Source: Geobacteraceae bacterium (GTDB lineage: Bacteria > Desulfobacterota > Desulfuromonadia > Geobacterales > Geobacteraceae). From it: 36,599 bases of DNA. Within the stretch, counting starts at the first letter, position 1, and the number at the start of each line of letters is the position of its first letter. The stretch spans positions 1-36,599 of the forward strand of contig JANXYN010000050.1 of NCBI GenBank assembly GCA_025356035.1, written 5' to 3'. The notes beneath the pieces were generated by a model, which was not told the DNA's origin, ran no database searches, and saw only the letters and a list, made by a program, of their open reading frames with translations. The position numbers and the translations under genes were made by a program. Below are positions 33,513 through 35,637 of the stretch, piece by piece.

Positions 33513-33704
33513 ATGGGGAGAGGCGGCAACAAACATCCCTGCCCGGACTGCGCTTTCTGCCAGTGGTGCGGCGAGGAGCGCTGCCGACTCTGCAAGGCGC
33601 AGCCGCCGTGTCCCCGGCGAAAACTCTCCCAGGCAGAACAGATTGCTCTCTATGAGGCGGTGAACCGACGATCCGGGAATAATGACGGGGAGCCGTCGCC
33701 CTGA
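33513..33704 (+). CDS. Small cysteine-rich protein
   Basis: This 63-residue frame has seven cysteines in the first 35 residues, arranged CPDC-x2-C-x2-C-x4-C-x2-C-x5-C, enough for one or two metal or iron-sulfur sites. The second half is polar and helical (LSQAEQIALYEAV). I do not recognise a family. The ATG at 33513 lies 6 bases after the deacetylase stop, with no clear ribosome site of its own, so it would depend on coupled translation. The regular CxxC spacing and a following terminator argue that it is real. Confidence 0.55.
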   Translation: MGRGGNKHPCPDCAFCQWCGEERCRLCKAQPPCPRRKLSQAEQIALYEAVNRRSGNNDGEPSP

Positions 33705-33756: not shown

Positions 33757-33793
33757 AAACCTGCCCGGGTTTTCATAACCGGGCAGGTTTTTG
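33757..33793 (+). terminator. Intrinsic terminator after Cys-rich gene
   Basis: A perfect 12-bp stem AAACCTGCCCGG (33757-33768) pairs with 33779-33790 and ends in a T run. It closes the yggS-deacetylase-Cys-rich unit. Confidence 0.9.
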
Positions 33794-33901: not shown

Positions 33902-34744
33902 ATGGCACAACGCAAAAAGCTCGGTGAAATCTTTGTGGAGAACGGCATCATTACCCAGCAAACTGCGGATCGGGTGCTGGCTCGGGCCCAGTTTCTCGGC
34001 AAAAGATTCGGCACCGTGCTGGAAGACCTCGATCTGGTGACTGGCGATGAGCTGGCCAATGCCCTGGCTGTTCAGTACGGGTGCAAGGTGGTGAATAACC
34101 TTTCCAGCCACAATTACCCGGCGGAGCTGCTGGAATTCATTCCGGTGGAGGTGGCCATGCAGAACATGCTCTTCCCGCTGAAACGGGAAAAGGACCGGTT
34201 GGCCCTCGCCATGGCGGACCCGACCGAAACAAAGATCGTCGGCAACATGGCCGCCGATAACGGCTTGGTCATTGTCCCGTTCATCGCCACCAAAAAGGAG
34301 GTCTATGCCGCCATCTGCAAGCATTATCTTGGCAAGGAGGTATCCACTCGCCGTGATCGGACCGTTCTGGTGGTGGAGGACGACAAGTTGATCCGCAGCA
34401 TGCTGAGCGATACTCTGGGGAAGGTGGGATATCGTGTAGTTACAGCCCAGGACGGGATGGAGGCCTATAAGGCGGTTATCATCGAAAAGCCCCAGGTGAT
34501 CATTACCGATAAGGAGATGCCGAAGCTGGACGGCTACGGGCTGTTCGATTCGTTAAAAAATATCCCGGAAACTCGCATCATTCCGGTTATCCTCATCACC
34601 AGCAGGATGAATGCGGAGGAGGAGGCAAAGGCCTTTGACAAGGGATTCTTCGATTTCATCAACAAGCCGGTGAAGGATGCCACTTTGCTGACTCGGGTCA
34701 AACGTGCGTTTCAGTATTATGACCGCCAGTACCGGCTGAGTTAG
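33902..34744 (+). CDS. MshEN (GspE N-terminal)-receiver fusion protein
   Basis: This 280-residue cytosolic protein joins an N-terminal MshEN/type II secretion ATPase N-domain (residues 5-145) to a C-terminal CheY-like receiver (153-275). The MshEN part has the double 24-residue motif with exactly 5 residues between (6-29 and 35-58), the arrangement that binds cyclic di-GMP in MshE. Arg is replaced by Lys at the first position of motif 1. The receiver has the acidic pair Asp160/Asp161, phospho-acceptor Asp203 (ITDKEMP), Thr233 and Lys255 (NKPV), so it should be phosphorylatable. There is no ATPase or output domain. It could pass both a phosphorylation and a second-messenger signal. No kinase gene is adjacent. 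Confidence 0.9.
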   Translation: MAQRKKLGEIFVENGIITQQTADRVLARAQFLGKRFGTVLEDLDLVTGDELANALAVQYGCKVVNNLSSHNYPAELLEFIPVEVAMQNMLFPLKREKDRLALAMADPTETKIVGNMAADNGLVIVPFIATKKEVYAAICKHYLGKEVSTRRDRTVLVVEDDKLIRSMLSDTLGKVGYRVVTAQDGMEAYKAVIIEKPQVIITDKEMPKLDGYGLFDSLKNIPETRIIPVILITSRMNAEEEAKAFDKGFFDFINKPVKDATLLTRVKRAFQYYDRQYRLS

Positions 34745-34812: not shown

Positions 34813-35625
34813 CTATTTATTCCCCAATTCCTTTGACCGGAGTGTGGCCGCGTCTACCGCACTGATAATGGCGCTGCGAAATCCATGCTGCTCAAGTGCC
34901 GAGAGCCCCGCGATGGTGGTGCCGCCAGGGGAGGTCACCTTTTCCCGGAGGATGGCGGGGTGTTCCCTGGTTTCCAGGATCATGCGGGCTGAGCCGTAAA
35001 CGGTCTGGGCGGCCAGGGCAGTGGCGATGTCGCGGGGGAGGCCGTTTTTCACTCCGGCGTCGGAGAGTGCCTCGATAAAGGTGTACACATAGGCGGGGCC
35101 GCTGCCGGAAAGGCCGGTTACGGCGTCGAGCAGTTTTTCCTCCAGCACGAAGGTCTTGCCGATCAGGTCGAAGATGCGGCGGGCCAGGGAAATATCCCCG
35201 TTGCTGGCGCTGGCACCGGCGCTAATTGCGGAGGCTGCCTCCATTACCAGCGCTGGAGTGTTCGGCATGACCCGGATGACCCGGCTCTTGGCGGGGAGGA
35301 GCGCCTCAATGGTAGCGGTTTTCACCCCGGCCATGATGGAGATGAGCAGCTGGTCAGATGCAACCGTTGCAGCGACCTCGCCCAAGACCATTTCGGCTAT
35401 CTGTGGCTTGATTGACAGGACCAACACAGAGCAGCCGCTAACTACCGCCTGGTTGTCCCCAGAGACGTTAACCCCATAGCTGTCCCATAACACACCACGG
35501 CGCTCTGCAACCGGTTCTGCAACAGCAATTTCGGACGATGGTACCCCACCCGCCAGCAACCCTTTGATGATGGCTTCGGCCATGTTGCCGCCGCCTATGA
35601 AGCCGATCTTTTTGTCCTGCAGCAT
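34813..35625 (-). CDS. proC: Pyrroline-5-carboxylate reductase
   Basis: This 270-residue enzyme reduces 1-pyrroline-5-carboxylate to proline with NAD(P)H, the last step of proline synthesis. The N-terminal Rossmann motif is GFIGGGNMAEAI. Further blocks are LSIKPQ, VIRVMPNTPALV, the DAVTGLSGSGPAYV segment of the dimer interface, and TSPGGTTIAGLSALEQHGFR near the end, all standard for ProC. I prefer the ATG at 35625, with GGGGGA close upstream. An ATG four codons earlier is possible but has a poorer site. It converges with the MshEN-REC gene and is divergent from the XRE-cupin gene. Confidence 0.95.
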   Translation of the reverse strand: MLQDKKIGFIGGGNMAEAIIKGLLAGGVPSSEIAVAEPVAERRGVLWDSYGVNVSGDNQAVVSGCSVLVLSIKPQIAEMVLGEVAATVASDQLLISIMAGVKTATIEALLPAKSRVIRVMPNTPALVMEAASAISAGASASNGDISLARRIFDLIGKTFVLEEKLLDAVTGLSGSGPAYVYTFIEALSDAGVKNGLPRDIATALAAQTVYGSARMILETREHPAILREKVTSPGGTTIAGLSALEQHGFRSAIISAVDAATLRSKELGNK

Positions 35626-35637
35626 AGTTTCCCCCAT

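Follow-up and report, generated by a model that had tools for sequence, protein, structure and literature searches.

The consensus of the tandem MshEN motif, and the six ligand-contacting positions within each motif, were defined from Vibrio cholerae MshE by Wang 2016 (PMC5013675). The same paper lists MshEN with a two-component receiver (REC) as an existing architecture and cites a Bdellovibrio response regulator of this kind, Bd2402, as a tight binder of cyclic di-GMP (c-di-GMP). The MshEN-REC architecture is therefore not new, and the fusion by itself adds little to that account (PMC5013675).

Published mutants indicate how far such a pocket can be damaged. In MshE, binding fell by 61% with Q32A and by 83% with R9A (PMC4624772), and mutating any single conserved hydrophobic contact caused a more than 10-fold loss (PMC5013675). 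For the GSPII-B domain of Thermus PilF, Q190E, at the equivalent of Gln32, is reported to raise the KD from 6 to 950 nM, changing both Gln residues abolished binding, and Lys or Leu at position 1 gave a higher affinity than Arg (PMC11731258). Two domains with off-consensus motifs, the XpsE N-domain (2d28) and PilF GSPII-A (9g1w), are described as not binding c-di-GMP (PMC5013675, PMC12002112) and, for a truncated GSPII-A construct, the authors concluded that measurable binding required putting back both Gln residues together with one Arg (PMC12002112).

The gene considered here lies in a window of 36,599 nt, the whole stretch of DNA analysed, from a Geobacteraceae bacterium. Its 280-residue product resembles the MshEN-receiver proteins of Wang 2016, Bd2402 included, in joining MshEN to a two-component receiver; it differs from Bd2402, compared here by its published description as a tight binder, in carrying a degraded motif I. 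It likewise resembles GSPII-A and the XpsE domain in having a MshEN fold with deviating motifs; those domains are parts of ATPases, unlike the present one, and GSPII-A lacks both Gln residues whereas our protein retains that of motif II. Its particular interest lies in an inherited loss of half the pocket, while the same cell carries a paralogue whose pocket is intact. A literature search of open-licence papers yielded no study of a Geobacter MshEN-REC protein among the matches listed.

Domain architecture and fold

The coding sequence and the parts of its product are as follows.

33902..34744, forward strand: MshEN-REC response regulator gene, 280 amino acids plus stop, start backed by homologues
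33917..33988, forward strand: MshEN motif I, degenerate (residues 6-29; 7 of 11 consensus positions, 3 of 6 ligand contacts)
33989..34003, forward strand: five-residue spacer (residues 30-34)
34004..34075, forward strand: MshEN motif II (residues 35-58; 8 of 11 consensus positions, 5 of 6 contacts)
34097..34336, forward strand: MshEN_C sub-domain (Pfam MshEN PF05157, residues 66-145)
34364..34702, forward strand: receiver domain (Pfam PF00072, residues 155-267), with the expected phosphorylation site D203 at 34508-34510

The ATG at 33902 coincides with the start of the homologue alignments, although the open frame extends up to a TTG at 33791, and the original prediction had the coordinates and frame right. 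Internal in-frame stops suspected in two close homologues proved, on extraction, to be terminal stops only and were dismissed. Pfam MshEN scores 44.4 bits over residues 66-145, the C-terminal sub-domain, above its curated cut-off of 23.1, which places the protein in the MshEN family, and Response_reg scores 87.1 bits over residues 155-267 against a cut-off of 30.2. The ATPase domain PF00437 (T2SSE) gave no match in the 280 residues up to E 1, so that the protein does not belong with the PilB/GspE-type ATPases. The NCBIfam PilB model spans residues 6-150 with 54.5 bits, far under its whole-protein cut-off, as expected because the ATPase is absent. Searched against PDB sequences, the first 145 residues matched the N-domains of PilF, PilB and MshE, with a best E of 1.2e-17.

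The AF2 model of the whole protein has a mean pLDDT of 86.6 and a pTM of 0.54, at which the placing of the domains relative to each other is unsure. MshEN was also modelled separately, the fold search with the whole model having returned receiver structures throughout, in keeping with the match of its C-terminal part to these. The MshEN model alone (mean pLDDT 89.3, pTM 0.79) superimposes on the MshE/c-di-GMP crystal structure 5htl_B with Z 17.3 and rmsd 2.1 over 136 residues, and Foldseek found 5htl_A at E 5.9e-8. The N-terminal four-helix bundle (MshEN_N, residues ~7-59) and the C-terminal alpha/beta sub-domain that together make up the MshEN fold are both present in the models. The protein thus shares with the V. 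cholerae MshE N-terminal domain (PDB 5htl) the two sub-domains, the motif lengths, the spacer and the fold, but where MshE carries an ATPase it carries a receiver.

The ligand pocket and its inheritance

With the 24-5-24 spacing kept exactly, the two motifs match 15 of the 22 positions that the consensus specifies; the best of 20,000 shuffled versions of the protein scored 12. The contact residues are K, L, G, A, L, A in motif I and R, F, G, L, L, Q in motif II. K6, A22 and A29 replace V. cholerae R9, L25 and Q32, the last two substitutions removing the stacking Leu and the ligand-contacting Gln of half-site I, and in motif II the sole contact change is F36 for L39. Consensus is missed at positions 1 (K), 6 (F), 17 (A) and 24 (A) of motif I and at 2 (F), 7 (E) and 10 (D) of motif II. 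The protein therefore lacks the full contact set, with both Gln residues, expected of a high-affinity MshEN receptor. Neither motif passes the relaxed pattern that Wang 2016 used for database searches (PMC5013675); this is a strict filter, since each motif of a Gln-keeping paralogue from the same genome, G000:C205, falls short of the relaxed pattern at one position too. A tandem MshEN motif had been claimed from the sequence; its spacing holds exactly, but the claim was overstated for motifs as lopsided as these.

By analogy with the published mutants, K6 is likely to be harmless, and A29 and A22 should each cost affinity; with motif II intact, total loss of binding is uncertain. The mutants lead us to predict c-di-GMP binding that is weakened rather than abolished: the published Gln changes, the two Ala substitutions and the intact motif II together make weak binding the expected outcome. 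Near-normal function is possible, since neither Q32A nor Q190E abolished binding. Judged from its residues, the product probably senses c-di-GMP weakly or not at all.

Homologues were sought in 58 genomes, the majority from the same family and order, and long matches spanning both domains occurred in 47 of them (row count). Matches in named relatives came from one Geobacteraceae MAG, one Geobacter MAG and eight Geomonas loci; at a further locus, the eleventh, only the receiver matched. In an even draw of 198 genomes from the phylum, 19 matched at E <= 1e-20 and only seven across both domains: the source genome, one of the same family, two of the same order, two of the same class and one of another family of the phylum, the last with 59% identity. 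A tree was built of 91 distinct proteins, with identical proteins counted once, matches of fewer than 200 aligned residues dropped and one long match, G057:C102 (residues 15-271, one internal stop), left out. It splits into 37 and 54 proteins at a 100/100 branch, our protein falling among the 54, within which two long-branch rows of unsure placement, L048 and L087, were also counted.

This split coincides with the state of Gln32 (MshE numbering). The residue is kept in 36 of 37 sister-clade proteins, the exception being a Gly in L112, whose N-terminus is gapped, and it is replaced in all 54 of the own clade, by Ala in 34 and Ser in 20. On a quick tree made without the contact columns Gln32 needs two changes, L112 being the only odd row besides the split, and its loss is inherited, and fixed, across the gene's whole clade. 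Leu25 is found in 37/37 of the sister clade against 11/54 of the own clade, where Val predominates (37) and Ala occurs only in our protein and one other. Gly47 shows a similar imbalance (37/37 against 19/54), but it is not a clean clade marker because it needs six changes on the tree. Other parts of the pocket do not vary: Gln61 and Gly40 are present in 91/91 and Gly11 in 90/91 (one gap), and no own-clade protein departs from Gly11, Gly40, Leu58 or Gln61, while all have R or K at position 38.

The own clade was counted in 30 of the 58 genomes. The source genome holds one member of each clade, the present gene and G000:C205 (L108), which has the same architecture and 41% identity over residues 3-273 but, as a sister-clade member, retains both Gln residues, Leu25 and Gly47 and has 10 of 12 ligand contacts against 8 of 12. 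As a separate observation, 16,810 bases around the MshEN-REC genes on contigs 7 and 11 of Geomonas oryzae (L012, L013) are 100% identical, which points either to a large duplication of recent date or to an error of assembly.

Receiver residues and genomic surroundings

E159, D160, D203, T233 and K255, which we take to be the catalytic positions from their equivalence to CheY residues, are all intact, so that the acidic pair, phospho-Asp, Thr/Ser and Lys of a response regulator are in place. The original prediction, MshEN fused to a full receiver and to no ATPase, is in this respect borne out. All five residues are present in 39/54 proteins of the own clade and 33/37 of the sister clade. Of the 15 own-clade proteins in which at least one is missing, 13 lack D203, as against 1 of 37 in the sister clade, and the state of the receiver, complete or incomplete, has changed at least seven times on the tree. 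Phosphorylation cannot therefore be essential clade-wide; for the protein itself, phosphorylation at D203 is likely from its residues, without being general for its clade.

Some of the altered receivers form groups. In L027, L028, L029, L031, L034, L035 and L036, from the seven genomes of genus g11, the phospho-Asp is Glu in 7/7, as it also is in L087, a divergent clade member of that genus, and upstream of the g11 group lie a hybrid kinase gene and one for an ABC substrate-binding protein (one representative of each scanned). The receivers of L092, L093, L099 and L106 lack both the phospho-Asp and the Lys, and in L092 and L099 the gene is flanked by the same three gene clusters.

The immediate surroundings of the gene are the following.

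33513..33704, forward strand: 63-aa Cys-rich small protein, upstream of the MshEN-REC gene
33757..33790, forward strand: terminator-like hairpin (12-bp stem, 10-nt loop, T run) between the gene and the upstream genes
34813..35637, reverse strand: proC (pyrroline-5-carboxylate reductase), convergent downstream neighbour

Upstream of the hairpin lie the small Cys-rich gene, a deacetylase gene and yggS. The 65-nt stretch that holds the hairpin folds at -24.7 kcal/mol; a consensus hairpin scan that allowed loops of up to 8 nt did not return 33757..33790, whose loop is 10 nt, and its counts were the same as those of shuffles. Downstream of the small gene, L040 and L041 likewise have T-run hairpins; the nine remaining loci of the 12 with this gene arrangement show other folds of -11.8 to -22.0 kcal/mol.

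Neighbourhoods were drawn for 85 of the 91 proteins, five having no large locus and one being unplaced. The small Cys-rich gene stands directly upstream of MshEN-REC in 12 loci, and proC comes next in 11 of these; in the exception, L027, its place is taken by a SPOR-domain gene and argS. Viewed from the small gene, 20 loci included three with MshEN-REC and nine with the small gene and proC but no MshEN-REC, seven of the nine leaving 57-189 nt between the alignment edges and two holding other ORFs; no proC was seen inside the remaining eight loci. In L157 and L161 other ORFs lie between the small gene and proC, one of them HicA-like by eye. The site beside proC is thus variable among relatives, being filled, empty or occupied by other ORFs, and the small gene, which has one match each in 54/58 genomes irrespective of the presence of MshEN-REC, is context only. 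In some Geomonas-type genomes the own-clade member lies by a gltX-like gene, a place held in other genera by the sister-clade gene.

Neighbours were scanned as one representative for each of 27 neighbour clusters together with the 20 ORFs of the window; no pilus or secretion gene was found among them, and no kinase among the 20 ORFs. The gene is an orphan without a conserved operon. Neighbouring genes were rejected as a clue to function, given the variable site and the independence of the small gene. Hybrid or sensor kinases do occur near three own-clade sub-groups (c36, c43 and c101), at distances of 167-461 bp in c36 and c43. Because kinases are expected to be common in such genomes, their proximity was set aside as evidence; in the c36 group, Glu stands in for the phospho-Asp in 7/7.

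Possible modes of action

The explanation that we favour, though tentatively and with somewhat less than even confidence, is that the protein is an orphan response regulator in which MshEN serves as output and contacts a partner, with c-di-GMP as a weak secondary input, half-site I being degraded. A kinase encoded elsewhere would phosphorylate D203, as the intact receiver residues suggest, and the receiver would then alter how the MshEN domain is held or how it oligomerises; this domain may act through a protein partner as MshEN does in pilus and secretion ATPases. The ancestral form of the family was probably a two-input device sensing c-di-GMP through two half-sites, a form that would survive in the Gln-keeping sister clade, and in the own clade the loss of Gln from half-site I beside an intact half-site II would leave weaker binding, micromolar or worse. 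If this is true, the lineage offers natural pairs of MshEN regulators, with complete and half pockets in the same cell, which would test directly whether MshEN can be the output of phosphorylation when c-di-GMP plays no part, and whether an uneven MshEN pocket reads an uneven dinucleotide.

A phosphorylation-controlled adaptor that has lost dinucleotide binding altogether, with MshEN as a protein-binding module only, is unlikely but deserves serious attention, given that Gln32 is lost in 54/54 of the clade and Leu25 in our protein as well, and that degenerate non-binding MshEN domains have precedents in XpsE (PMC5013675) and PilF GSPII-A (PMC12002112). A dead pocket is hard to square, however, with the invariance of Gly11, Gly40, Leu58 and Gln61 and the constant R/K at position 38, and single-Gln mutants in other systems are reported still to bind (PMC4624772, PMC11731258). 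At the other extreme stands the full c-di-GMP receptor, coupling phosphorylation to c-di-GMP, as the gene was first read. Such coupling is possible in principle, and Wang 2016 states both that Bd2402 binds tightly and that perfect conservation is unnecessary (PMC5013675), while the preference of GSPII-B for Lys or Leu over Arg at position 1 (PMC11731258) excuses K6; but three of the six motif I contacts are changed, Gln included, binding cannot be assumed when the half-site I Gln is lost in the whole clade, and the paralogue G000:C205 is, with its more complete contact set, the better candidate, so that we regard this reading as doubtful. The further proposal that the protein is a decoy of the PilB or GspE N-domain, a phosphorylation-controlled competitor for the pilus or secretion platform, found no specific support and seems improbable. 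It draws on the fold common to PilB/GspE-type N-domains, on the PilB N1 domain being thought, from T2SS homologues, to contact PilM (PMC11656802), and on the host ATPases with MshEN, one PilB-like and three other T2SSE-type among those scanned. The source genome has eight other MshEN proteins, of which seven were compared, the one on C32 being left out, and PF00437 is present in four of the seven. The nearest to the gene's MshEN domain is the other MshEN-REC protein (41.7%, 116 bits), followed by the non-ATPase protein C120 (32.1%, 72 bits), PilB (28.9%, 63 bits), the non-ATPase C76 (27.9%, 59 bits) and two further ATPases (28.9-30.8%, 51 bits each), so that there is no special closeness to any compared ATPase, and the scanned neighbours, as noted above, include no pilus or secretion genes. 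The two MshEN proteins without a T2SSE match, G000:C120 (L002:829-1947:-) and G000:C76 (L005:793-2025:-), have C-terminal parts that resemble each other on visual inspection and gave no Pfam match.

Least probable of all is that the uneven pocket is adapted to an uneven ligand, 3',3'-cGAMP, a messenger made by Geobacter; in its wider form, that the whole Gln32-less clade might be protein receptors for this dinucleotide in Geobacter-type bacteria, wired to a receiver and combining an intact guanine half-site with a re-shaped one, it is equally a long shot. V. cholerae MshEN is reported to bind cGAMP weakly (KD 3.3e-4 M), but the clash of the adenine is placed at the backbone amide of residue 12 and not at positions 25 or 32 (PMC5013675), and the Gln-keeping clade shares many of the same hosts. 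In the source genome, 19 matches to GGDEF and 14 to the GEMM-I riboswitch were counted. By the Hypr Ser rule one GGDEF protein stands out, a GacA-like protein that is the only one with Ser at the Hypr position among 15 GGDEF stretches with a readable motif. Ser at this diagnostic position marks Hypr enzymes (PMC6456294). With GGDEF proteins, GEMM-I riboswitches and a GacA-like protein of this type, the host is likely to make both c-di-GMP and cGAMP, a signalling set that permits the cGAMP reading but does not strongly support it. GacA-like matches at E <= 1e-60 occur in 50/58 genomes, one of them partial (G048). They are present in 29/30 genomes with the own clade and 21/28 without it (hand count, Fisher p 0.023), a co-occurrence that says little because kinship is ignored and GacA-like proteins are near universal in the genomes examined. 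Ser occupies the Hypr position in 30/30 of the GacA-like loci checked.
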